DNA from: Brachionus manjavacas
Lineage: Eukaryota > Rotifera > Eurotatoria > Ploima > Brachionidae
Reading direction: 5' to 3'
Length of the DNA stretch: 64,000 nt
Assembly: GCA_019054805.1 (NCBI GenBank)
Contig: JAHQIY010000006.1
Location: 3,782,001 to 3,846,000, forward strand
This document shows positions 14,829 through 58,901 of the stretch, piece after piece. Numbering within the stretch: the stretch's first letter is position 1; every line of letters begins with the position of its first letter. The notes below the pieces were generated by a model, which did no database searches, was not told the origin of the DNA, and was given only the letters and a program-made list of their open reading frames with translations. Position numbers and translations under genes: made by a program.

Positions 14829-17714
14829 TTATTTTTTAGAAAAAGCTGGTAAAGACAATTTATCTTCCAAAACTAAATTTCCTAATTTTATCAAATTTTT
14901 CGAATAAAACACAATTAATTCAGTCAGAGTTTTAAATTTTGTTTCTTCTTCAGATCCAGGATCACAATTTTTTGTATCATCAAATGAACTATTTAGACTT
15001 AGATTTGATGAGTTCAAATAATCTTGTTCATCTCTGGCTGTGTTAAATGCCATTTTTCGTTTAATATAGCTAGATTTTAAAAAACAGCCAGAATTATTTT
15101 CCTCAATCAATATATGCTTTATTTCTCCATTGCACACCATACTCAAAATGTATTTTGAATTCGGCTTGACATTTGGTCGTACCAAATAAGTTCCGTTTGG
15201 TTTCGATTCTAAAAATTCTACTGCTTGCTCTCTGCTACAATCAGCCATGAACCAATTCAATGAATTTGCATGAATATCGGCATTTTTTTCACAATAATCT
15301 CCATTTATTTCCGAAAATTGCATTTGTGTCTCTTGAGACAAGTCCAAGGATTCATTTAAATTTATACTTGACATTCTCTCTAAATTATTTTGAATTTTAT
15401 CATCATTTTCTCCCCGTTGAATCAGCCACATGTGATAATTTTCTCTTTTTTTTCGCATTTCAACCAGTTCAGGCCTCATCAAATCGACTTCTTCCTGAAG
15501 TTGACTCAAAACAGTATTACAATAGTCAACTTCTTCTCTTACTTTCTCTCTCTTAATATTAAACTCTCGTATTCTGGACTCCAGTTTTTCTTTGTTCTGT
15601 TTCATCAAAGAATCTAATTGACCAGTGTCGTCATCATTTATTTCGTCACTTTGTCTACCAGCCAAACTCATTGGCATCAATTGAGATACCAAAAGCCTGG
15701 TAGTTGAGATGGCACTTGTTTTTTTGTAAAGATTGCTATTAATTGTTCTATTTACTTGGTTGATCTGTTGATTATACATTTCAATAATTTTTTCAAGAGC
15801 CTCCATGGCCAATTTTTTATTTGCCATGTCTTCTCTTACACTATTAATCTCAATTTCTAAATTATCATACTTTTTGGTCAACTGTTCGAACTGGTTAAAA
15901 GCATCCTGAAAAGATGAATAAAGCTTATCAATGCTCCATTGAGTGGTTTTTCCAAATTTGTACTTGGACACGCCATATGTCAGTACCAAATTTAGATTGT
16001 GGTTGTACTCTCTGAGAGAAACTCGTGAATAGTATGATATCAAATTGGCAACTGATTCAAAGCGGCATGGTTTTTCTATATCATAAAAATTACCATTTGC
16101 TTGTTCTTGCCGAAAAATTTTTATCGACTTAACTAAAGATGATTTCATAACACATAAAGTATAGGGCGAATCGAAACTTTTATCAGTTGAATTTCTTACC
16201 AAAAAACTTCCATCGGGACAATTTTTCAAAATCAAATAAGTCTCATCTCTGTTTATGTCTCCCCAAAACCATTGATTTTCATTTATAGAATCCAATTTTT
16301 CGCTAGCCACTGATCTAATTAAGTCCTGTTCGACTGGGGCTGTGGGACGCTTAGGCCGTACTTTGTACTCAGGCAATTCAACTCCCCAGTCAATTTCAAG
16401 AATCAATCTTTGAATAACTAGTGTCTGATTATCAGTATTTACAACTATGTTGGTTATATTTTGCCATTCTGGTCGAATTAAGATACTGCGAAAGATGTGA
16501 AATAATTTATCTGGTAAATATTGGCACCCTCGGACCTTGTGCTGGTAATTCCACACTCGAATCAAATGTGCCATAACAGACCTTAGACAAGTAAAATTAA
16601 CAGGATTTAATTGCTCATTTATAATTTGTTTAAGCTCTTCTAATTTCATTGTGTGAATTTTCGCTACCAATCTATCGTATAAACATTCAGGTAACACACT
16701 GTCCTGTAAGTCCCTCAGAAAACTTTTCACTAAAGCAGCCACAGTATTTAAATCATAAGAATCTAAATTAATCAATTCGAGTCCATTTTCATTTATAAAC
16801 TCTTTTATTTTATCAATTTTGGCACTATCAGCACTCAAACGATAAACGTCGTATAAATCTTCACTGTTTTGCAAGGCTCTTTGTTCAATATTTTTAAAGA
16901 GGCGAGCTAAAAATAGTGGAGCTTGTTCGGAAGTCTCTTGGTTCATCAACTCGATCAAATTTGCGCCAAAAATTAAATTTTTTTTAGGTTTGAAAGTCTT
17001 GGGATCAAGTTTACACTGCGGAAGACCAATCTGAGAGCATTGTCTGTGGCACAGAAGACCACATTTTTGACACTGAAGTCCTTGATGAAGTATGCCAAGC
17101 AATGGTCGCCTACAAATACTACAATCAGTTAATTTGGATAAAGTTTTTAGTAAAAAGAAATGGTTGTCAGCTTTAAATTGGTTTTCGATAAGATTTTTTT
17201 TAGCCTCTTCCTGCTCTAAAATTACTTGTTGAATATTTGAATAAAGCTTAGATTTGAATATAAGCTCATCTCTGGCTTGCAGAATGGCAGCATGATGAAA
17301 AGGGTCTCTAATTCTAAATGCGAATAATTGATAAACATCTAGGCTCAATAGTTTTACACCATTAATACCATAATTTCCAAATATTTCCGAATAACGATGT
17401 ATGTTAACTACAGCTAGCCATTCTTTCACTGTTTTTACACACCAATTCTCCACCGGAAATAGAGTTTTCCTACTTATATTGTCAATTGTTTCCGCATCAT
17501 CTTCAAAACATTTACTATTATTAACAAACAGTCTACATTTGTTGTGAACACATTGTGAGCATTTTAAACATGAATAGCCGATGAACCCTTCGCCCCAAAT
17601 AAAATCTTTGCAATTAAAACAGATTGTTGGCTTCAGAAATGCACGTATTTGAAATGAATGGATATCAGATGGAGCATCTGAATCAAGTGGCTTGTACTCA
17701 ATGTAATCATTCAT
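14829..17714 (-). CDS. PI3K class IA regulatory subunit (p85-like), intronless
   Basis: Adaptor that holds p110 PI3-kinase and recruits it to phosphotyrosine receptors at the plasma membrane. 961 residues in one exon. Order: C1 domain at 19-69 with a perfect HX12CX2CX13CX2CX4HX2CX8C pattern; SAM-like domain about 88-152 (VKEWLAVVNIHRYSEIF); second C1 at 185-234 with the same ligand pattern; RhoGAP/BH domain about 245-440 with VYRLSADSAKI retaining the arginine; N-SH2 (WFWGDINRDETYLIL, GSFLVRNS); inter-SH2 coiled coil (YSSFQDAFNQFEQL); C-SH2 (WFMADCSREQAVEF, GTYLVRPN) with an insertion of about 45 residues before its end. Human p85 has SH3-BH-SH2-iSH2-SH2. Here the SH3 is replaced by C1 and SAM modules, which could add lipid binding. 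It is intronless among intron-rich neighbours. Confidence 0.92.
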   Translation of the reverse strand: MNDYIEYKPLDSDAPSDIHSFQIRAFLKPTICFNCKDFIWGEGFIGYSCLKCSQCVHNKCRLFVNNSKCFEDDAETIDNISRKTLFPVENWCVKTVKEWLAVVNIHRYSEIFGNYGINGVKLLSLDVYQLFAFRIRDPFHHAAILQARDELIFKSKLYSNIQQVILEQEEAKKNLIENQFKADNHFFLLKTLSKLTDCSICRRPLLGILHQGLQCQKCGLLCHRQCSQIGLPQCKLDPKTFKPKKNLIFGANLIELMNQETSEQAPLFLARLFKNIEQRALQNSEDLYDVYRLSADSAKIDKIKEFINENGLELINLDSYDLNTVAALVKSFLRDLQDSVLPECLYDRLVAKIHTMKLEELKQIINEQLNPVNFTCLRSVMAHLIRVWNYQHKVRGCQYLPDKLFHIFRSILIRPEWQNITNIVVNTDNQTLVIQRLILEIDWGVELPEYKVRPKRPTAPVEQDLIRSVASEKLDSINENQWFWGDINRDETYLILKNCPDGSFLVRNSTDKSFDSPYTLCVMKSSLVKSIKIFRQEQANGNFYDIEKPCRFESVANLISYYSRVSLREYNHNLNLVLTYGVSKYKFGKTTQWSIDKLYSSFQDAFNQFEQLTKKYDNLEIEINSVREDMANKKLAMEALEKIIEMYNQQINQVNRTINSNLYKKTSAISTTRLLVSQLMPMSLAGRQSDEINDDDTGQLDSLMKQNKEKLESRIREFNIKREKVREEVDYCNTVLSQLQEEVDLMRPELVEMRKKRENYHMWLIQRGENDDKIQNNLERMSSINLNESLDLSQETQMQFSEINGDYCEKNADIHANSLNWFMADCSREQAVEFLESKPNGTYLVRPNVKPNSKYILSMVCNGEIKHILIEENNSGCFLKSSYIKRKMAFNTARDEQDYLNSSNLSLNSSFDDTKNCDPGSEEETKFKTLTELIVFYSKNLIKLGNLVLEDKLSLPAFSKK

Positions 17715-18322
17715 TCTATTTTCATTATTTCAATTAATCATTCTCATAACTAAATAGTAGGGAATATTTAGAAAGGAAATTTATTTACGTTATCATTTTA
17801 AAATTTGATTTCAATTAGTTTTAAATAATTTATTAATTATTATTAAAAATATTAATTTAATTTGATAAATTATTATAATTTTAGATTTATCGTCATTGAA
17901 ATTTTCTGAGCGAATTTTATTTAAATTAACTTGACTTTAGAAAAGAATATTAATCAATATTTACTTTTAATACTTCACTAAATGTTTAATTAAATAAATC
18001 AAAAAGTTTAATTAGTAATTTTTTTTAGTAATTTTTATGTTTTTCCTTTCAATTTAAAATTTGAATATTAATCAAATTTTGATCAATTTTTAAAAAAATC
18101 TTATTTCATGTTAATAATTCAAGAAGCTCTCAGTTTAAATGAATCAAAATTATTTTAAAAAATTTTAATAACTAACAGATTCTAAAAATAAATTTACCTT
18201 TCTGATTGAATTGATAATAAACATTTTTTATCAACAGAAAATTAAAAAAATTGTTAAAGAGTTTTATTTATTAAAATCTAATAGTTTTATGTAAATTGAA
18301 AAAATCTTTCTTGAAAAAATAT
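17715..18322. other. AT-rich promoter-side spacer
   Basis: Upstream of the PI3K regulatory gene and 3' of the Cys-rich gene. No ORF or recognisable motif. Confidence 0.6.
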
Positions 18323-27010: not shown

Positions 27011-28666
27011 TTATAATTTCGGAAAAATTTTTACCAAAATGTCTTTGACATACTTTATTTTGTGTTCATTTAAAAATTCTTGAATTATTTTAGCATCAAG
27101 AATAATTTCAACTCGACTTGATTCTTCATTGAATGTCCATTTTAGACCATCTGTAACATTGATTTCAAATCCATTGGGATAAACAAATTTTGGAATAAAA
27201 ATTTCAGTAATTAAAATTGCTTGTTGATAGCTCGTTATATTAATCTGGTAGTTATAAATAAAATATTTTGTTGTCGTATTGTATGAATAGCCCATCGGTA
27301 TCCCATTTGTAGCCATCGGATATACTCTACTAAAGATTTTTATTATTTCCTCGTTTATCTCAGGATTCGGATCAAAAAAATTCGAGTCCCAGTAAGTCCA
27401 TGATTGAAAGTAATCATCTGAAGCATCTAATACATATTTACAATTATCCAGGTTAATATGGTGTGAAACTGGGTCTTGGTAAACACAAGTTCCGAATTCT
27501 GTCAAAAAAGAGGCTGATCCGCCAAGTTTTTTACTTTCGTCTTGTACTGACTTAAAAAAAGAAGTCAGTTGCCAGTCTGAGCAGACTTCGCGAACAAACC
27601 CAGGAAAAGATCCATTGACTAATAAATTCGGGTCAATATCAAGTAACCAACAGTAAAAGTGCCAAGACAAAGCGGTTCCGGAAGAATCATTATTTGGTGC
27701 TCTATCGAAACCAGTGCCAAAAGCGCCTTTTGACGTCACTAGACCCCAAGTTACCGGTTCATAGAAAACAATTGTTACTTTGTCATATTTTCTTATTTCT
27801 TCATAAGTTTTATCATACAAAGGAAGTAGATTTACTTTGTCTGTAATACCCGGAAGCAAAATGAAAGGATTTTGATAGATATTTCCTGCCTTTATAAAAT
27901 AAACTAATAAAATTAATAAAATAATATAGTTTGTAAAGAAACCCAAGGTTCATTTATTAGCTCATAAGCTAAGATTGAGGGTGAGTTGGAGAAAAGCTGT
28001 GAAACAGTTCTCCAGTAATTAAGAAAGTGTTCTTGAACATTATTGATGTTGTCATAAAGACACTGAAATGCAAAGCCACATGCTTCTGTAATATAGGACG
28101 CGAAAATATTAAATTCAATTGTTTTGTTTGTAATTGGCCATGGAAACTGAAGTTTAGAATTTGGAAGCTCGTTAACAAACCATAGTGGAAAGCCATCGTA
28201 TGAGGCACTAACAAAAAATATAGAAAAAAATAATTTATCAAGAAATTTTGAATTCTGATTACAATTTTGTTGACATCATGTCTTGGTGAAGATCAAGGAT
28301 AGTGTAAATTCCATATTTTTCCAAATTTTTAACAATACTAACCATTTCATTTACGTAAGTTTGGTTGAGCTGATTTTTAGCTGGAAAAAGACCCGACCAC
28401 ATCAAACCAAGTCTTACAGAATTAAAACCCCATTGTTTGAATAAAGAAAGATGAGTATCATTTTTAAGATTAAGATTTGAATGATCAGGTACCCATGGAA
28501 ATTGTTTACTTACTGCATTGAATCCATGAAAAAGAATAATTCGACCATTTTGATCAACAAACCATTTGTCTTGTGTTTTTATTTTTCTTAATGATGACTC
28601 ATACGTGTCAAAATAAACAAATAAAATAAAAAATGTCAAAATTGTCTTTTTTATAATGGGAATCAT
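27011..28666 (-). CDS. endoglycoceramidase-like GH5 glycosidase
   Basis: Secreted or lysosomal enzyme predicted to cleave the oligosaccharide-ceramide bond of glycosphingolipids. Exons 28263-28666, 27943-28207, 27011-27889; 515 residues. Signal peptide at the N-terminus (KKTILTFFILFVYFDTYESS). GH5 blocks: IILFHGFNAVSKQFPW, FNSVRLGLMWSGLFP, TILDLHQDMMS, YDGFPLWFV. Acid/base Glu in ELINEPW (about residue 221) and nucleophile Glu in FLTEFG (about 354), with HFYCW between. Several N-glycosylation sequons in the C-terminal beta region. The second intron begins GTTTCT, a weak donor, but phase and homology at NEPW|AGN support it. Length matches animal and bacterial EGCases (about 490-520). Confidence 0.92.
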
Positions 28667-30834
28667 TTTTTTTTTTTAGAATAAAAAATTATTTTAAATT
28701 TCTTTTCAAAACTTATCAAATGGATAAATTTAAATTAACAACTGATTAAATTATCTTATATTTATTTGTAAATCTTTACCTAGATAAAGCTTCTTCAGAA
28801 TAAAAATAAAAAAGTTAAATAAAATAATTAAGAATTTTAATATTCATCATACCCTTAAAAAATTTATCATAAAACTCCAAGTTTTCTTAGCTATGATTAA
28901 GTTTGAAAATAATTTTTTTATAAGTAGTTCAAGATAATTGGAAAACTCTAATATAGTGTCCAATTGCCTATACTCTACCATTTACAGCTAAGTCATTGGG
29001 AAATACAATTAGATAAAGGTGATTTTATATAAGCAACAGAGTAAGGTAAAGTCAAAACATTTTCTAAATTTTTAAAAAAAACAAAAAAAAATAAATTTGT
29101 TTGATTATAAATCTCAAATTTCCTGTTTTATGAGCTGTGGAAATTGGTTTTTACCTTTTATTTTTTTTATCAAAATTTTTAACTTTTAAGTCAAATAATT
29201 CATCCTATTTGTTATTTAGTTCTTACTTTATTTAAAATGAGGATTTTATTTCATACACAAAACTATAATTATTTCAATTTTTTAATTCAATAATTATTAA
29301 AATACATAATTTTACAATTTTTTTGATGGAAAAAAATTTATATTTTATCTATTTTATCTTCATAAGAACCACAATTCAAAATCGTGTATTCTCCTTTAAT
29401 GGTTAATTTTAAAATTTATTTGACATGTAATTATCGTATCACTTTTTTTTCATAGACAATCGTCACTTAAATTAAAAAAAATTAGTGACTTTTTTATATG
29501 AAAACATAACTTAATTGTTAAAATAAAAAACACTTTTTTATTTGAAATCGTCACTTAATTTAAAATATTTATTTAAAAAAAAAAACACATTTAACTTGTT
29601 GTTACGTGTTTGATTACAAAGTAAAATTACCATTGAAAGATGAAATTTTGAATTAAAATCAAATATTTAAAAAAAAAAATTAAACAAAACCATGATAAAA
29701 AATATTTAATCAAAAAAGAAATTTAAAAAATTTTTGTATTTTGCCCTTAAGGTTTTTGTTTTGTTTCCAAAAAAAGCATCCAATTTATCGGTCGGTGTTA
29801 TCAAATGACTATATCATAATCTATTCTAGTCGAATAACTGCATTTACTGGGCTTCTCAATTCCTTTAATGTCGCTCAAGGTATCATTGCTATTGAATGTC
29901 GGCACAATAAGCTTTTTTTGCTTAATTTAAAATAACAGAAATAAAGAAAATAAATTCTCAATAAATTATTTTACCTTTCTTTTCAATTCAAAAAATTTAT
30001 TTTTAAAATTGTCAACGAAAAAAAATTTTTCTTAAAAAGCTGAAAATAACACTGGTTATTTTTTAGGAAATTGTAGTTTAACTTTAAAATCATGAATTCC
30101 TCGCGGAATTGCTATTTCATTGACGTATTTTTCATTCCTTAAATTTTTAAAGCCTAAAACTCCAACAGAGTCAACCAAATTGTTCATGGATCAGAATATT
30201 CCATTTAAAAGTCAAATAGAGTTAAAATAATTTTTAATTGCATTTTTTTTTTGAAATCTTTGATTAAAAAATAAACAGATTTTTGAAACATTCAATTAAA
30301 CTTTAAATTTAATGGTCAGTTTTTCAGAATGGTACTCTAGCTAGGAATCAGATATTGCTATAAGAAAAAATAAAATTTACTGATCACGAAACTTAACGAT
30401 TCTTTTTATTCAAATGGATTCTAATACAAAACGTGCTGAAATTGTTCAAGAATGTTTAATTTAAGAATTTTCTATCAAAATTTTTATCAAGTTAATTGAA
30501 AATGTTGTTAAAATTTATATTAAAATTTTTTGAATCACTAATAAAATAAAGAAATTATCTAATTTTTTCACTTTTCAAAAATATTTCAAAATTATTTTAG
30601 ATTCTGTTTAAAAGCTATTTTTTCCGCTAAGTGTTAAATAATTATTTGATATTAATCAAATTAAAAAAAGTTAAATTTTAAATAAATATCAAAGTTGCCA
30701 AGCAACTTAAAATAATTTTAGTCAGCAGAATATTTTAACTTTGCTTTGTTCTTGTGTAAAAATAAATATTGAATTGGTGATATCCTTGTTAATGTAATTA
30801 GTTTTCTTACATTATTTATTAGTTGTTATTTCCC
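28667..30834. other. AT-rich intergenic region with two small unassigned ORFs
   Basis: Between the divergent endoglycoceramidase (minus) and ankyrin gene (plus). A less AT-rich plus-strand open stretch at 29741-29935 (contains ITAFTGLLNSFNVAQGIIAI) has no ATG at its start and is unrecognised. A 43-codon minus-strand ORF is listed separately. Confidence 0.45.
30056..30187 (-). CDS. small hypothetical ORF, 43 residues
   Basis: Begins MNNLVDSVGVLGFKNLRNEK and ends KVKLQFPKK. Its codon make-up is less A/T-homopolymeric than the flanks, and IAIPRGIHDFKVKLQF looks like beta-strand protein. No family recognised and no partner exon found; could be a last exon or chance. Confidence 0.25.
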   Translation of the reverse strand: MNNLVDSVGVLGFKNLRNEKYVNEIAIPRGIHDFKVKLQFPKK

Positions 30835-40534: not shown

Positions 40535-41583
40535 CTAATTCTTTGTGATTTCGTTATTAAAATAACTGTCTAGATTCGTGCCATTTTTACTCATAGAATT
40601 GCCAATAACAAGAGATGCAACAACCATTGCTTGATAAGCATTTAAATCATTAGCCATTACAACCCCTAAATCAATAAGACTTTGATTTCCGCCTAAGCCT
40701 GCATATTCAGGACTTACACCACCAAATTGACATTTTGTTACAAGGATCACTTTAATTCCGAATTCAATTACTTTTTTAATCGAATAATACAATTCCTCTG
40801 AAACATTTCCACTTCCATACGCAATAATTACCACTGCTTTAAAATTTCGGTTTAAAAAAGCATCAAGCAAAAAATCTGGTGCTCCAGGGTAAGCGCAAAC
40901 TATTGGAATCGATTCCAGTTTATTAGGTAATGGAATAAGTACCGGTCTTTTTAGAGCTCCTCTCCAATCAATGTTTTCTCCATGCATCATTCCTATAATT
41001 CCAAATTTTCCGCTGGTAAATGGATCTATAGAAAATGTATGCTCTTTTCGAAAATATGATGGATTATGGATTTTGCCAGCAAAATTAATACTCACTCCAT
41101 TAGAATACAAGATCGAATCTTTATTTAAAATTTGTTTTATTGAATTGCATAAATTTGCTTTTCCATCAAAATCAGAATTTTTAGTTTCTCTAGTAGAACC
41201 AGTTATAATTATTGGTTTATTATGATTTATGATACAACGATGAAGGAAATAGGCCAAAATTTCCATTGTATCAGTGCCATACACCAGAATCATTCCTTTC
41301 AAGCAGAAAATAAAAATTAATGCATACACAAAGTAAATTAATTACCTTTAACTTGATGAGAGTTGATTTTTCTTTGTATTGTTCTGGCAAGGTCATAGAA
41401 AAAATCCAAATCTGCCAAAGATGAATCTATATCAGCATAATCTATGATTTGAATATCTATCGAGGAAAATTGCTTTCTGACTGAATCAGAAATTTCTGTC
41501 ATGCTTGAAGTGGTTTGTCCGTCTTTAGTGGCACATGCCAATCCACCAGCAATTGTAATTATAATTTGAGAAGAAACATCCAT
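40535..41583 (-). CDS. L-asparaginase paralogue lacking first catalytic threonine
   Basis: Type I/II bacterial-fold L-asparaginase homologue, 332 residues, exons 41346-41583 and 40535-41295. The second half is well conserved: LVYGTDTMEILAYFLHR (Thr87-Asp88 of the TDT triad), KPIIITGSTRETKNSDFDGK, FRKEHTFSIDPFTSGKFG (catalytic Lys), IVIIAYGSG-like KAVVIIAYGSGNVSEELYYS and GGNQSLIDLGVVMANDLNAY. In the N-terminus the TGGTI nucleophile motif is replaced: IIITIAGGLACATK has Leu at the position of Thr12 of the Escherichia coli enzyme, and the hinge Tyr is absent. Compared with its neighbour it also lacks the MLRRFSSQ leader. Probably catalytically impaired or inactive. One phase-1 intron, absent from the paralogue. 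Confidence 0.88.
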
Positions 41584-42551: not shown

Positions 42552-43592
42552 CTATTCAATTATTTTGTTGCTAAAATATTTCTCTAAACCGTATTCATTC
42601 GAAAGATATTCGTTATCAAAGACAAGTGAAGCCACAATCATAGCTTGATAGGAATTCAAGTCATCAGCCATGATGACTCCCAGATCTCTTAAACTCTGAT
42701 TACCACCAATACCGCCATATTCTGCATATACACCTCCGTACTTACAATTTGTGACAAGCACTACCTTCAAGCCATGTTCAATAGCTTTTTTAATTGCATA
42801 ATACATATTTTCATTAACATTTCCGCTACCATAGGCAACCACAATCAAAGCCCGGAATTTTTTTTCAATAAACCCATCTAAAAGATCAATGGTAGCTCCT
42901 GGAATAGCATAAACAATCGGAACAGACAAAAGAGACTCTAATTTATCTGGTAGTGGTATGCACAAGCTTTTTTTAGGGTTATTCAACCAATCTATACGTG
43001 ATGTATGCATCATACCAATTACTCCATAAGACCCGCTTGTAAATGGATCAATGGCGAATGAATGCTCTTTATGGACATTTACTGGACTGTGAATTTTACC
43101 AGCAAAATTAATGCTTACCCCATAGCCGTACATCAATGATTCTGGATTGGAGACTTGTTTAATAGCATTGGTAATGTTTGCTTTTCCATCATAGTCACTG
43201 TTTGTTACCACTCTCATAGCTCCAGTGATCACAATGGGTTTCATTGGTGAATATACAGATCTATGTAAAAAATAAGCTGTTATTTCCATTGTATCAGTTC
43301 CATGCACAATCACGACCCCATCTACTTCTTCGGCATTTACTTTTTGCTGAACTAGTTTGGACAAGTTGAACAAAAAATTGAGATCAATAGCTCGAGAGTC
43401 AATCATTGCAAATTCAATTAGATCAATAGTTTCCAAATTAATCTCGGAACCGATGGATTCAATGAGCTCTTTGCCACTTGTTTTTGGCACATAACCACCC
43501 AATTGTCTGTCAAATTTTTGTACAATCGTACCTCCGGTTGTTATCACTACAATTCTTGCATTTCCACTTTGGCTTGAAAAACGACGCAACAT
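42552..43592 (-). CDS. L-asparaginase, likely active
   Basis: Hydrolyses L-asparagine to aspartate and ammonia. 346 residues, intronless. First threonine motif IVVITTGGTIVQK (Thr22), hinge Tyr34 in LGGYVPKTS, Ser66 region FAMIDSRAIDL, second motif VVIVHGTDTMEITAYF (Thr99-Asp100), Lys175 in NVHKEHSFAIDPFTSG, and C-terminal GGNQSLRDLGVIMADDLNSY. All residues of the two catalytic triads are visible. The leader MLRRFSSQSGNAR is short, basic and hydroxylated, so mitochondrial targeting is possible but not shown. It lacks the C-terminal ankyrin repeats of human ASPG and is closer in layout to bacterial type II enzymes. Horizontal origin is possible but cannot be judged by eye. Confidence 0.93.
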   Translation of the reverse strand: MLRRFSSQSGNARIVVITTGGTIVQKFDRQLGGYVPKTSGKELIESIGSEINLETIDLIEFAMIDSRAIDLNFLFNLSKLVQQKVNAEEVDGVVIVHGTDTMEITAYFLHRSVYSPMKPIVITGAMRVVTNSDYDGKANITNAIKQVSNPESLMYGYGVSINFAGKIHSPVNVHKEHSFAIDPFTSGSYGVIGMMHTSRIDWLNNPKKSLCIPLPDKLESLLSVPIVYAIPGATIDLLDGFIEKKFRALIVVAYGSGNVNENMYYAIKKAIEHGLKVVLVTNCKYGGVYAEYGGIGGNQSLRDLGVIMADDLNSYQAMIVASLVFDNEYLSNEYGLEKYFSNKIIE

Positions 43593-45286
43593 TTTTTTTT
43601 GTTTTGTTTTATTTTTAATTGCCTTATTTTTTTAAAATAAACAAATTAATCTAAAATGTTACGTAATTATGTTTAAAATATAAAACATATGAATTTTTGA
43701 TTTTTGATTTGATTTCATTGAATTTATTATAAAAACTATTATTTCATTAAATTATATATTCGCTTCATAATTTTTCCAACCGAAAAAAAAAAAATTCTGA
43801 TATGTTGGAATTTTAGACAAAATTAATAGAAATGAAGTTTTATCCATTAATTACAATGTGAACACTAAAATTTCTTATTATTTATTCATCGCATGCTTAA
43901 AAAGATAATATTGATAAGAATATTTTAACAGGCTGAATAACACACCCTAATGACGGGCGTGTAAATCGCGTAATGCTATATCAGACAAATCATTATATTT
44001 TATTTCTTTAAATTTAAAACTAAGAATTAAAAAAAAAAAGCTTTCAAATATTAGATCAATATTTTTTCACAATAACATTTAATTTTAAAAATATGAAATG
44101 AAGAAAATTTAATAGATTTCTCATGACTAAAAAATGAAACTTTTTTCAATTTTGTTCCGAGGATTCTGTAACTAAATTAACAAATAAATGATGACACTTC
44201 ACTTAAAGCTTTAACAATAATTTGTATGTTTAAATTTTCTGACACTATTTTTTGTCTAAACATTTTAAAGCGTTTCAAAGCTTTTGAAATTATAAATTAA
44301 TGGAAATTATGTATTCATCGAAAATTGTTTTAAATAAATTAAATATACTAGCCAAAAAGTGTGTAATTTTCCGCAAGTATAAAACTATGAAATTTTAACA
44401 TGAGAAAATATAAAAAGCTTATAGGAAATATTTTAGGTTAAATTAATATTTTTTCAACAAAAAATATGTTGGCGCAATTTCAAAAAAGCTAAGCGGGCAA
44501 AATTTAGTCAAATATGAAAATTTTTTTATTTTTAATTTCATTTTTATTTTTTTTTTAAATAAATTTAAATATTCGTAGGGAAGGTTAGACATTTTAAAAA
44601 AATATGGAGCTCGATTAAGATTTTTGATTTTATCTATTATTATGAAAATATTATTTATATAATATTTTTGTTTTTTCAGTGAAATAAAAAAATAAACGAT
44701 TTGATCGAAGAACTGGCACCTCTAATTGTTAAGACTTGAACGAACGGTCATTTGGCTGACCGTATTGGCGGCTCATTATTACTAAATAAAGAGATATAAC
44801 TCCTAAGAATTGAAACAGTATTCATGGCCACGACGAAAATTTTTGCCATAATTTTGACCTACCGCTTAGGTTTTTCCGCATTTATTAAAAAATGTATTCG
44901 CCAAGATAACCGGAAATTTGGTCGCAAAAACTCTGCACAACTCTAGTGATTCCCTGTCAAGTAATTTCGATTTGATTAGAATAATTTTTGGTCACGTGAA
45001 AAAATTCAGATTCAATACAGAAGTTTTGTAGAGATGTGTTTTTGGGTGATCAAAATATTACAAAATTTTACATTTTTAAACAAATTTTTTTCAATGAAAA
45101 TCACTTTTGTTTTTTAAATCTTTAAAAAAAATGCAATTTTTTTGAAATTTAAAAAAAAAGCCAAGATTAATCTTTATTTTATTTTTTTTTTTTAAAACAC
45201 AGTATTATATGAAATTAACACTTTTTCAAATCGAAAATTTTTATTAAGTTTTTTTTATTCAAATTAACTATATATGATCATAATTT
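43593..45286. other. intergenic region
   Basis: AT-rich apart from a GC-shifted block at 44700-45060. A short hairpin CACACCC/GGGCGTG near 43942-43963. No ORFs. Confidence 0.55.
44700..45060. other. GC-shifted non-coding block
   Basis: Near-balanced composition, for example GGTCATTTGGCTGACCGTAT and CGCCAAGATAACCGGAAATT, with no long open frame. A small stem CGGTCATTTGGCTGACCG lies at about 44746-44763. Reads like part of a transposon rather than host gene; origin unknown. Confidence 0.4.
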
Positions 45287-54728: not shown

Positions 54729-56096
54729 ATGAATCGAAAGCCTCATCAGATAGAGACAAGGGTTATATTTTTGCGTATTGGAGATATCGAAACTGTAAAT
54801 GAAAAGTTTTTTGCTGAAATATTGGTCGAAAGTAGATGGGAAGAGCCCAAGCTGAGTTCAGAATTCGACAAGTCTTATTTATTCAATGAAGAAAAAGAAT
54901 TGGCATCTGCTAAAAAATACTGGAATCCTAATATTTACATTGAAAATGCCTTGAATGATGTTAAAAAAACTGTTTCTTACAAAATCATGAAAAGGTTTTG
55001 TGTCAAACAAAATAATGAACCTGAAGATTCAAATATAAAATTTTGGCTTTACGAATGTCAGCAGATCAAAGGACATTTTTTTCAAAAGCTTAAGTTAAAA
55101 TATTTTCCTCTCGATGTACAAGATTTGAGTATTATGGTAACCACATTTAAATCTAACAAAGAAGTAGAACTTGTCAAGAACAAAGAAAAAGCATCAGTTA
55201 TTGGAAGCAGTATGACTATTGACAAAAATATTTGGTAATTTGATTATCTAAACTTTTAAAATAGAATATAATCAAAAAAATATTAAATAAAAAAAATTTA
55301 TTTTATTAGGCACTTGCATCCGAATGTTGAAGTTAAAGGAAACACCGACTTAATTGGAGATAAAAATGCTGATATGGATCAAAATACAATACATGAAGAT
55401 ACAAGTCTATCGATTCATAGTTTGATAAAATTTCCATTTATCATGTTTCAATGTAAAGTATCACGGCGAGGTGGCTATTACTTTTGGAATGCATATTTTT
55501 TGATTTTCTTGATCACAGCTGCAATTTTTGCTGTTTTCGCTGTAAATCCGAATCAACCATATTATAGACTTCCAATTTCGGCAACTTTATTACTTACAAG
55601 CATAACATTCAGATGGAGTTATAGCAGTCGTTGTTTGCCAACTGTAAACTACTTTACATCATTGGATAGCTATTCAATTAAATCAATTGTGCTCATTTTT
55701 TTATGCTTGATTTGGCATGGTATAATAACATTTTTTTTCAATTTTTTTGAATACAATACAGTAAACATAATAGATAAATCTATGCTAGGATTTTTGTTTT
55801 TTCTTTTTATTTTAGTTAATTTAAGTCTTCTTGTCTGGCTTAGATCTGCTTTCAAAATTCGCAAATCTATCCGATCCAGTGAAAAAAGCCTTTTTGCTAA
55901 TCTAAAATCAAGATTTAGTCAATCTGATGACATATTGAGATATAATATGTCCTTACAACTTGATGACATGCAAGCTCGAAATTCTATATTTAGTGTTGTG
56001 AACAATATTGACTTGATGAGTACTTTAAATGAAAACAACAATATATTGCGTCGTTATTCGCAAGCGGTTCCATTCAAAAGAAGTATTCCCGAATAA
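54729..56096 (+). CDS. Cys-less pentameric ligand-gated channel-like protein (copy 1)
   Basis: 430 residues; exons 54729-55234 and 55310-56096. The ligand-binding-domain-like half starts almost at the Met (QIETRVIFLRIGDI). It has the loop signatures VESRWEEP (33-40), KYWNPNIYIEN (63-73, the W-x-P loop) and KYFPLDVQDLSI (124-135), corresponding to FPFDxQxC. The second Cys-loop cysteine is Leu133 and no partner cysteine lies about 13 residues before it. Then four hydrophobic segments: FWNAYFLIFLITAAIFAVFA (M1), ATLLLTSITF (M2 region), SIVLIFLCLIWHGIITFFF (M3), MLGFLFFLFILVNLSLLVW (M4), with a basic C-tail. There is no visible signal peptide, so orientation in the membrane is open. Similar Cys-less members are known in protists and bacteria (GLIC-type). 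Ligand unknown. Confidence 0.82.
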
Positions 56097-57515
56097 ATGT
56101 TTTCTTTTTATTTAATTTTTCGCATCAATTCAATTTAAATGCTTCAAATTAAAACTTTAGATATAAATAAATAAAAATAAAAAATAAATAGTTTAAAATA
56201 ATTTTAATCATGTCATAATTATTGTTTTGAAAGAGTAAAAGTAGCAATAATGACTGCGGCATAGAGTTATAGACCACCGATTTCTGCTATAGATTAAAAG
56301 AACTTTTCAAAAACTAAAAAAGAATCTCCAAATAATTTTTGATTTTTTCAATTTAAAGTTAATTTGAAAATTTGAATGGCAGTTTCTTTAATATAAAATA
56401 TTTGTATTTATATTAAAATTGACAAATGATTTTTTTCTTTATATGAATAAAAAATCCAACAATATTGTTTAAAAAATATTCAAAGTGAAAATATTAATTG
56501 AACTAACTTACTTATTTTTTTAACAGTAAAAGACAAAATAAAAAAATAATTTTTTTCCAGAGTAAAATTTCATTTTCTTGATTTCAAATTATTTTGAAGT
56601 TAAACTTGTTTATTTTATTATATCCGTCTGGTTCAATAGTCCAAATTAGTTACTTTTATTATCTATTTAGAATTATAATTAAAAACTTATTAATTAGCCG
56701 CTGAAAGAAAACGAAAGGTTTTACTAGTTGAGCTTTATGATAGCTTTTTAAACCATAAATAGGAAGTTGAATTCCAACCAAACTAATCTAGATGCTTACT
56801 TGTAACAGAATGGTTAAAGACATTGAATAAAATAAGGTAAATGGCTTTATTTATATTAATTAAATTAATTTGTTTTCAGATAAACTCAGTAAAATTGAAA
56901 TGGAATTTTTTTTTATCACAAAATTTTAAGATCTCTGTATTTTTTAAAATAAAAAGCAGAAAAAATTCAATAATTTCGATTTGATTTCCTAAATTTTATT
57001 AATTAAAAATTAAACTCAAACAGGAATCAAATATTTTATTTAGAAAAAAGTTCGGATTTAAAGGTGTTTCTGATTTTTTTTATTTTGAGTTTTAAATTTC
57101 CATATAAAAAATAGCTGATTTTATTTTTAAATATTAATAAAAAAATGCGAAAAAAACGAACAAAAAGTTGTTAGAATAAAATCAACTCAAAAACACTTGA
57201 AAATTTAAATTAAAAAAAAACAAACTTTAGATAAGAAAAATTTGTTTTCAAATCATAAATGATAAAATAAAATTAATTCATTAAAATTCGTGACTTGTTT
57301 TTGGTACCATCAAATTCAGAAAAACATTAATTTAAAAAAAAATTTAAAATGAGAATTTAAATTGACAACAATAGAAAAAGAACTGTTTGAAAAGTAAATA
57401 AATATTCAAAAATTGATTTTAAATATAAAAATGTTTGCAATAAAAATAAAATTCTTTAGAAAATAAATTTTATTATTTAATAAATAACAACTAAAAAAAA
57501 GAAAATTTGAAAAAA
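56097..57515. other. spacer between the channel genes
   Basis: AT-rich, 1.4 kb; must contain the promoter of copy 2. No motif recognised. Confidence 0.6.
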
Positions 57516-58901
57516 ATGAATCAAATTCCTCGCCAAATTGAGACTAGAGTTATTTTTTTGCGAATTGGAGACATTAATACAGTCAAAGAACGATATTTTG
57601 CCGAAATTCTCGTAGAAAGTCGATGGGAAGAGCCGAAACTCTTTTTTGAATTCAAAAAAGCGGAACTTGAAGAAAAGGAAATAGTCAATTACAAAAAGTA
57701 TTGGAATCCAAATATTTATGTTGAAAATGTTCTGGACGACTCTAATCAAACTGTACATTACCAAGCCAAGAAAAAACGTAATCTAAACATGATTTCAAAT
57801 GGAGAAGAAAATCAAATAGAATCTAAGTATTGGATTTACGAATATAAAAAGATAAAAGGATTTTTCTTCCAAAAATTAATGCTAAAATACTTTCCTCTCG
57901 ATGTCCAAGATTTGAGTATTGTATTGACCACATATAAATCTAGCAATGAGGTTGCGTTGGTTCAAAATAAAGAAAATTCATCAATTATTGGAAGCAGTTT
58001 GACAATTGATAAAAATATTTGGTTTGATTAGATTTTTACCAATATGAAGTTGATTTTGATTAAAATTATCTTTATTCCAAAAATTAGAAAATCTAAAATG
58101 TTAAAAGTTGTGATAATTTATTTAATCTAAAATGTCATTGTTACTAAAAAAATTCTTCTTTAGATTTAATTTTCAGATTTGAATGACTGAAAAACTGAGC
58201 TATAAAACTGAAAAATCAACTTCTCACAATTTATCTTATAAATTTTTTTATCAAAAATTATTTTTAGGCATCTTTACAATCATGTTGAAGTGACTAGTAA
58301 TTTTTTCACAAATGAAAATTCCGAAAATAACAACAATGGTAGAAGTTTAATGAAATTTCCATTAATTGTGTTTCAATGTAAAGTATCAAGACGTGCTGGT
58401 TACTACTTTTGGAATGCATATTTTTTGATTTTTCTTATAACAACTTCTATTTTTGCCATATTTGCAGTGAATCCCAAACAAACATACTATAGACTAGCTC
58501 CTACTGCAAAACTTTTGCTTACAAGTATTGTTTTTAAATGGAGTTTCAGTGGTCGTTGCTTACCGACTGTAAATTATCTTACATCTCTTGATGTTTATTC
58601 AATTGAATCTATCGTGCTCATTTTTTTATGCTTTATCTGGCATGGTGTGGTCACAATATTTTTAGATTTATACGACAAAAAAACAGTTGATATTATTGAT
58701 AAATCCATATTGGGATTTATGTTTTTGCTGTTTATTTTTGTTAATTTGACACTTTTAATATGGTCGTTGTATGCTCTAAAGATAAGAAAGTTGATGAAAC
58801 ACAAAGACCGAAGCATTGTCGAAGATCCTTTACAATCCAATTATCAAAACAAATTAAATAGAATTGATAATTTTTCTCATTCATCATTGTATCAAATGTA
58901 G
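57516..58901 (+). CDS. Cys-less pentameric ligand-gated channel-like protein (copy 2)
   Basis: 379 residues; exons 57516-58021 and 58268-58901. Tandem paralogue of the gene at 54729: exon 1 is exactly the same length (506 nt) and the intron interrupts the same Trp codon (phase 2). Same signatures: VESRWEEPKL, KYWNPNIYVEN, LKYFPLDVQDLSI, then FWNAYFLIFLITTSIFAIFA, KLLLTSIVFKWSF, SIVLIFLCFIWHGVVTIFL and LGFMFLLFIFVNLTLLIW. No cysteines at the Cys-loop positions. It lacks about 50 residues of the C-terminal tail found in copy 1. The start used is the ATG that aligns with copy 1 (MNQIPRQIETRVIF versus MNRKPHQIETRVIF). The intron carries a 64-bp repeat found again downstream of the gene. Confidence 0.82.
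58181..58244 (+). repeat. 64-bp direct repeat, copy 1 (intron)
   Basis: Identical by eye to 59237-59300; contains GAATGACTGAAAAACTGAGC. Confidence 0.92.

Follow-up and report, generated by a model that had tools for sequence, protein, structure and literature searches.

A 64,000-nucleotide stretch of the genome of the rotifer Brachionus manjavacas (contig JAHQIY010000006.1, positions 3,782,001 to 3,846,000; hereafter the window) carries two tandem genes on the forward (+) strand, gene 1 at 54729-56096 (430 aa) and gene 2 at 57516-58901 (379 aa). Both are, near certainly, relatives of pentameric ligand-gated ion channels (pLGICs), and both belong to a family that lacks the cysteines of the Cys loop and a recognisable leader. 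The ligand-binding domain (LBD) of these proteins is predicted to lie in the cytosol, which would make them inverted, internally gated pLGICs. This orientation, predicted from an absent leader and from a basic tail after the fourth membrane segment, is considered moderately probable. It is the predicted topology that is new, Cys-less invertebrate pLGICs being already known.

Relationship to pentameric ligand-gated channels

The original prediction had recognised a WxP loop, an FPxDxQ turn and four membrane segments in both proteins. WxP and FPLDVQ were indeed present in both genes; hydropathy alone yielded three strong segments (M1, M3, and M4), while M2 was located via alignment. A profile check detected Neur_chan_LBD in all seven members scanned (E ≤ 1, best 6.4e-13) and Neur_chan_memb in three of the seven. 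Gene 1 matched Neur_chan_LBD with E = 1e-5 and 25.5 bits, slightly below the curated cut-off of 26, and exon 1 of gene 2 reached 29.9 bits. When compared with the PDB, gene 1 alone matched GABA-A beta3 (E = 2.1e-6) over residues 208-319, around M1-M3. For a profile made from a seven-member alignment, 301 distinct sequences passed E 0.01; among the best 60 of these 301, ELIC ranked first (E = 1.1e-22, over the LBD and M1-M3), followed by GABA-A receptors. Alignment of the family with Dickeya ELIC by hhalign gave 98.5% probability over 249 columns. As judged by these profiles, the matches of both genes exceed chance.

Residues characteristic of the pLGIC (Pro-loop) superfamily were retained throughout. 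P127 and D129 of the [FY]PxD loop, the pre-M1 arginine R221, the M2-M3 proline P279, and the arginine at M2 position 0' occurred in 16 of 16 members, and position 9' was Leu in 15 and Phe in one. Because the Pro-loop Pro and Asp, the pre-M1 Arg, and the M2-M3 Pro are kept in all members, the LBD presumably still contacts the M2-M3 loop and the pore, whichever side of the membrane it occupies. The retention of these residues, together with that of Arg 0' and of Leu or Phe 9', argues against the alternative that the members are not channels by themselves, acting instead as scaffolds or chaperones with a pLGIC-like domain or as silent partners of other subunits. That alternative finds some support in M1 (55476-55544, residues 225-247 in gene 1), whose proline was, by eye, missing in 15 of the 16 members and kept in C16, and in a lysine at pore position 6' that is confined to gene 2; it is nevertheless regarded as quite improbable. 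An M1 proline is present in 77% of pLGICs, according to Table 1 of a published survey (PMC4795631).

The Cys-loop cysteines were missing as predicted. At the aligned positions gene 1, whose FPLDVQ turn (Pro loop) lies at 55104-55121, has Q119 and L133, and all 16 members have Gln or Glu and Leu or Ile at these positions, with no cysteine at either. Further cysteines in the LBD numbered between zero and five per member.

A search for additional genomic copies, which the original prediction had proposed, identified 16 genes including the two in the window, distributed over contigs C5 (two), C6 (four), C7, C8, C9 (two), C10, C11, C12, C14, C15, and C16 of a small, AT-rich genome of 114 Mb in 61 contigs. 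The window itself is situated on C6 and has a GC content of 22-35% per 2-kb step. The family size is a lower bound (at least 16 genes), obtained by protein searches of the genome with three members as queries and by scoring of the best candidates only; all three queries led to the same set of loci, and a decayed extra piece at C15:1403k was found with the second query only. Full-length models were obtained for 15 genes, of which C11 and C16 consist of a single exon, and one gene, C9a, ends within M4. Splice sites in the models were picked mainly by profile score, and the first exon junction of C14 is uncertain.

In a tree of 33 rows, the 16 family members were located on one side of a branch with support values of 100/99. 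Ten rows of ordinary Cys-loop receptors, chosen for a suitable open frame among the loci examined and covering some of the 70 genomic LBD exon matches, were likewise on one side of a branch and apart from the family, and the seven bacterial rows were not resolved (48/0). Bacterial loci L033, L034, L035, L037, L039, and L041, missed by the frame filter, stand outside this tree and outside the charge counts given below, and L028-L030 duplicate genes already represented by L027 and L026. The tree is unrooted, and the program warned of long branches; it therefore indicates separateness and not origin, and cannot settle the ancestry of the family. On these data it is very likely that the genes form a Cys-less family of their own that has no recognisable leader. 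The suggestion that this family is lineage-specific held in part: the family is real and expanded in this genome, but Cys-less invertebrate pLGICs were already published in 2016.

A recent transfer from bacteria was considered and rejected, as a scan with the family profile confirmed none of 158 candidate stretches in genome_contigs and none of 200 in viral_contigs. With ELIC as query, two loci were recovered from 31 stretches. Among bacteria, profile matches were distant; they occurred in one phylum in 2 genomes out of 301 and in a second phylum in 9 out of 398, and both numbers contain the seed genome, which had been chosen for having a match.

The two proteins from the window share 61% identity over 365 aa, and comparison of their genes gave a dN/dS of 0.16 with a near-saturated dS of 1.66; four other pairs were saturated and returned no dS value. 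This ratio, although obtained near saturation of dS, and the presence of open frames and usable splice sites in 15 models speak against the family consisting of decaying paralogues without function. In favour of decay are C9a, cut off in M4, the decayed copy at C15:1403k, and the 93.5% identity of C9a and C9b, but this explanation is considered highly improbable. The two C9 members, at locus L011 (contig C9:403000-410500), reflect a recent duplication, and a reverse-transcriptase-like frame, recognised by eye, lies nearby.

Orientation in the membrane

Simple hydropathy measures showed no hydrophobic N-terminal stretch in either gene 1 or gene 2, in agreement with the initial observation that an obvious signal peptide was lacking. 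In the segment before beta1, the hydrophobic maximum (10-residue Kyte-Doolittle average) was at most 1.64 in 15 of the 16 members. Five controls that carry a leader, three of them bacterial and two encoded in the same genome, reached 2.74-3.69. This number of controls excludes a row begun at the wrong Met (1.25); the same protein gave 3.23 from its likely start. The N terminus of C5b, MSDSDSDKKKKSSDESDLEE, provides an example of the cytosolic-looking N termini in the family.

These observations could also be explained by an ordinary orientation with a leader that had escaped recognition, encoded by a short upstream exon or translated from a non-AUG start, in which case the LBD would be extracellular and the long basic tail would be outside. 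An in-frame stop was, however, found 1-21 codons above the start in all 16 members, and in seven of these no AG occurred between that stop and the ATG, which leaves no acceptor through which an upstream exon could be spliced on in frame. Comparison of the 1.5-kb upstream regions of four close paralogues revealed no similarity at the DNA or peptide level, and those of the C9 pair were likewise dissimilar (DNA), the high identity of that pair starting at the ATG. Gene 1, gene 2, and C6b were also alike from the same Met onward.

The second indication came from the C terminus. In all 15 full-length members, M4 was followed by a tail of 24-94 residues that contained five to seven Lys/Arg among its first 20. 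Tails of bacterial pLGICs comprised 0-7 residues (n = 7), and the bacterial sequences L033, L034, and L035 (visible end) also stopped right after M4, by eye; those of ordinary receptors comprised 5-19 residues with 0-2 Lys/Arg (n = 4, with segments delimited by eye). In all 15 full-length members the M3-M4 loop was short, as in bacteria, and was thus not the large domain that ordinary receptors have in the cytosol. The positive-inside rule assigns a segment as basic as this one, immediately following M4, to the cytosol. Combined with four helices and the absence of a leader, this would place the LBD in the cytosol as well, whereas an unrecognised leader would leave the five to seven basic residues outside in 15 of 15 members. 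In this sense the absence of a leader and the basic residues after M4 lend support to the unusual membrane insertion that had been proposed.

Charge counts, from which the truncated C9a was left out, pointed in the same direction. Lys/Arg in the M2-M3 loop and the first 20 tail residues exceeded those in the M1-M2 and M3-M4 loops in 15 of 15 members, and an excess on the M2-M3/post-M4 side was found in 0/7 bacterial and 0/4 ordinary rows (M3-M4 flanks counted). In addition, M2 carried Lys or Arg at position 15', towards the LBD side, in 16 of 16 members, where the ELIC row has Ala.

Several observations weigh against a cytosolic LBD. When the tail was omitted, Lys/Arg in M2-M3 alone exceeded those in M1-M2 plus M3-M4 in none of the 15 members, and pre-M1 plus M2-M3 did so in 6/15 (bacterial rows, 2/7). 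With only the first eight tail residues the bias was seen in 10/15, and when pre-M1 was counted along with the tail, 15/15 members but also 3/7 bacterial rows were positive. The charge argument thus rests on the tail, since the loops alone do not show inversion, and the bacterial comparison partly measures tail length because bacterial tails are short. This dependence on the tail slightly lowers the confidence in a cytosolic LBD. The charge difference across M1 predicted a cytosolic N-terminal side in 11 of 16 members, was zero in three, and was opposite in two. An AG was present between the upstream stop and the ATG in nine of the 16 members, including both window genes; C15, with a hydrophobic maximum of 2.3 near its start, is a doubtful case, and hydrophobic residues, without a Met, are encoded in frame above the ATG of C12. 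AlphaFold prediction for the two exons, made from two sequences, gave unusable models with pLDDT values of 45 and 36, so that the fold rests on sequence profiles. Finally, we know of no inverted pLGIC, and the prior probability of such a topology is correspondingly low.

Of these points, the nine possible acceptors, the hydrophobic residues at C12 and C15, and the uninverted loop charges favour an unrecognised leader. Ordinary pLGICs, as generally understood, have a leader, and two examples from this genome do. The bacterial pLGICs found by Tasneem and colleagues all had one too, according to passages of their report (PMC549065). Set against the seven members without an acceptor, the dissimilar upstream regions, the common initial Met, and the basic tail, an unrecognised leader is judged rather unlikely.

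An ordinary orientation might also be reached without any leader if M1 acted as a reverse signal anchor, with the 190-340 residues of the N domain pushed across the membrane of the endoplasmic reticulum. Leaderless translocation of an N-terminal tail is understood to exist for some membrane proteins, and the zero or opposite charge difference across M1 in 5 of 16 members would be compatible with it. However, 191-340 residues precede M1, which is much to translocate without a leader, and this N domain is probably folded. Mean net charge was moreover higher before M1 than after it (+2.07 versus +1.0), and the basic C-terminal tail occurred in 15/15. A reverse signal anchor is therefore considered very improbable.

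Several other sequence properties were evaluated and not used as evidence. Loop charges without the tail showed no inverted Lys/Arg bias, although the net charge of pre-M1 plus M2-M3 was in excess in 12/15 members (bacterial rows, 3/7). The charge difference across M1, at 11/16, was too weak to be used alone. Depletion of sequons as a sign of a cytosolic LBD was uninformative: sequons in the family were at chance (27 seen, 26.1 expected), and the ordinary-receptor control (15 seen, 12.9 expected) showed the test to be powerless. A tail motif, [KR]x0-2S[IVM][FL] (for example, ARNSIFS), was noted in 7 of 15 tails (gene 1, C6a, C6b, C10, C15, C16, and C5a). It was left unused because it had been picked by eye afterwards, the copy in C5a is placed differently, and the sequences are related, so that its recurrence in 0 of 2000 shuffles does not represent a probability. 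Sites of the form [RK][RK]x[ST], present in 7/15 tails, were set aside as well, 54 of 2000 shuffles being equally high.

A predicted internally gated channel

If the preferred, inverted topology is correct, the N-terminal domain would fold in the cytosol for lack of a signal peptide. M1, as the first membrane signal, would insert so that its N-terminal end faces the cytosol and be followed by M2, M3, and M4, and the basic C-terminal tail, given its charge and length and the missing leader, would end in the cytosol as well. By homology, five subunits would assemble with the ligand-binding ring towards the cytosol, where a ligand or ion could bind between subunits. Contact among the Pro loop, the pre-M1 Arg, and the M2-M3 loop, for which the residues are present, would then open the Leu 9' gate as the coupling in the superfamily suggests. 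Such a channel, located either in the plasma membrane or in a membrane inside the cell, would report a second messenger or metabolite and not a transmitter. A cytosolic domain offers a simple reason for the absence of both a signal peptide and a disulfide, and the two oddities may thus be one consequence of topology.

The candidate binding cleft was examined at positions whose assignment to loops A, B, and D we take from the customary numbering. In the beta2 strand (E30-W37, 54816-54839 in gene 1, from the family alignment), around the loop-D position, acidic residues alternate: position 30 (E30) was acidic in 16/16 members and position 34 (E34) in 14/16, and W37 was present in 16/16. The WxP loop and presumed loop-A equivalent (W65-N73, 54921-54947) contain E72, found in 12/16, and the loop-B position was Lys in seven members, aromatic in five, and Leu or Ser in four (n = 16). 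As aligned, the cleft is unlike the aromatic box found where acetylcholine binds, and its orthosteric positions presumably differ from those of known receptors. The residues suggest several different, probably charged, ligands.

M2 of gene 1 (residues 256-275, 55569-55628, from the alignment) has T6', L9', and R15', with R0' immediately before it; in M2 of gene 2 (residues 245-264, 58494-58553) position 6' is Lys. No acidic residue, and hence no Glu, occurred at -1' in any of the 16 members. Together with the retained Arg 0', this sets the pore apart from a classical cation filter. The channel may let anions pass, which is a weak guess.

ELIC and other prokaryotic pLGICs resemble the family in having no Cys-loop cysteines, a short M3-M4 loop, and the sequence LP-x-x-Y-x-T-x-x-D after M2, but they differ in that a leader is present (passages of PMC549065; by eye also in several bacterial frames) and that a tail after M4 is almost absent. 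Anionic Cys-loop receptors (GABA-A and glycine receptors) share the LBD and pore region with the family. In contrast to these receptors, the family has no Cys-loop cysteines, no recognisable leader, a long basic tail after M4, and no Pro-Ala before R0' (a motif we take to be typical of them), and the M3-M4 loop of gene 1 comprises 10 residues instead of a large cytosolic domain.

Cys-less eukaryotic pLGICs were described by Jaiteh, Taly and Henin in 2016, whose alignment includes 69 sequences of this kind from metazoans (PMC4795631). The metazoan Cys-less group, stated there to be 'dominated by Lophotrochozoa' and predicted to be expressed outside synapses, resembles the family, as far as its description goes, in being Cys-less, of animal origin, and mostly lophotrochozoan. 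The main text of that study contains neither the term 'signal peptide' nor the term 'rotifer', and no proposal of an inversion was noted there (PMC4795631). For the oyster, 8 of 141 LBDs are mentioned as lacking a Cys loop in work on lophotrochozoan nicotinic receptors (PMC6896357). The wider proposal, that a whole animal pLGIC family is upside down and serves as a cytosolic sensor of second messengers or metabolites, and that the published lophotrochozoan and protist Cys-less clade may be the same, is tentative.

Among the literature matches listed, no inverted or cytosolic-LBD pLGIC was recognised from titles and the beginnings of abstracts; these matches cover few subscription papers and constitute weak evidence of absence. 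To our knowledge, characterised pLGICs all sense the outside or the periplasm, and a confirmed inverted topology would be, as far as known, a first for the superfamily. Membrane receptor families that are turned over relative to their relatives or look-alikes are represented by insect odorant receptors and heliorhodopsins, which differ from pLGICs in fold. As pLGICs are among the best-studied receptors, an inverted family would imply a gating machine indifferent to membrane orientation and be an example of a large receptor that was turned over during evolution. It would also account for the loss, in some eukaryotic pLGICs, of a disulfide that is essential elsewhere, and would indicate that a class of internally gated channels has gone unrecognised.

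Gene models and other features

Exon 1 of gene 1 (54729-55234, +) begins with the ATG at 54729, five codons below an in-frame stop, and encodes the first part of the LBD up to the Trp169 codon. A 75-nt GT-AG intron (55235-55309) interrupts this codon in phase 2, and exon 2 (55310-56096) encodes the remaining LBD, M1-M4, and the C-terminal tail and contains the stop codon. In gene 2, exon 1 (57516-58021, +) starts with the ATG at 57516, with an in-frame stop eight codons upstream, and likewise encodes the first part of the LBD. A 246-nt GT-AG intron (58022-58267) follows, and exon 2 (58268-58901) encodes the remaining LBD, M1-M4, and a 44-residue tail up to the stop codon. The single intron had been predicted to split the same Trp codon, and TG|G was found in both genes; models of paralogues C6a, C6b, and C5a have an intron at the same position. 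The equal length of exon 1 was correct as a number, 506 nt in both genes, but is partly coincidence because it is a net value in which 2-aa indels compensate each other and because the nearest paralogues have 515 and 572 nt.

Downstream of M2, gene 1 encodes M3 (residues 294-315, 55683-55748), an M3-M4 loop of 10 residues with one basic and two acidic residues (55749-55778), M4 (residues 326-346, 55779-55841), and a tail of 84 residues with six Lys/Arg among the first 20 (55842-56093). In gene 2, M1 (residues 214-236) lies at 58401-58469, M3 (residues 283-304) at 58608-58673, M4 (residues 315-335) at 58704-58766, and the tail, also with six Lys/Arg among its first 20 residues, at 58767-58898.

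Elsewhere in the window, tandem asparaginase-like genes were found on the reverse strand at 40535-41341 and 42552-43631, the second with Pfam support and the first by eye. Frames at 27011-28675 (-) encode a cellulase domain of glycoside hydrolase family 5 (GH5) and a GH5 C-terminal domain and, by eye, are possibly exons of one endoglycoceramidase-like gene. A single long frame at 14829-17729 (-) contains two C1 domains, a RhoGAP domain, two SH2 domains, and a p85 inter-SH2 domain, and resembles a PI3-kinase regulatory subunit with extra C1 domains. The sole COX1 match of the genome was located at 120555-121901 of contig C21, in a frame of 667 aa. We take this to be about as long as such oxidase subunits are in bacteria, and C21 may be bacterial.

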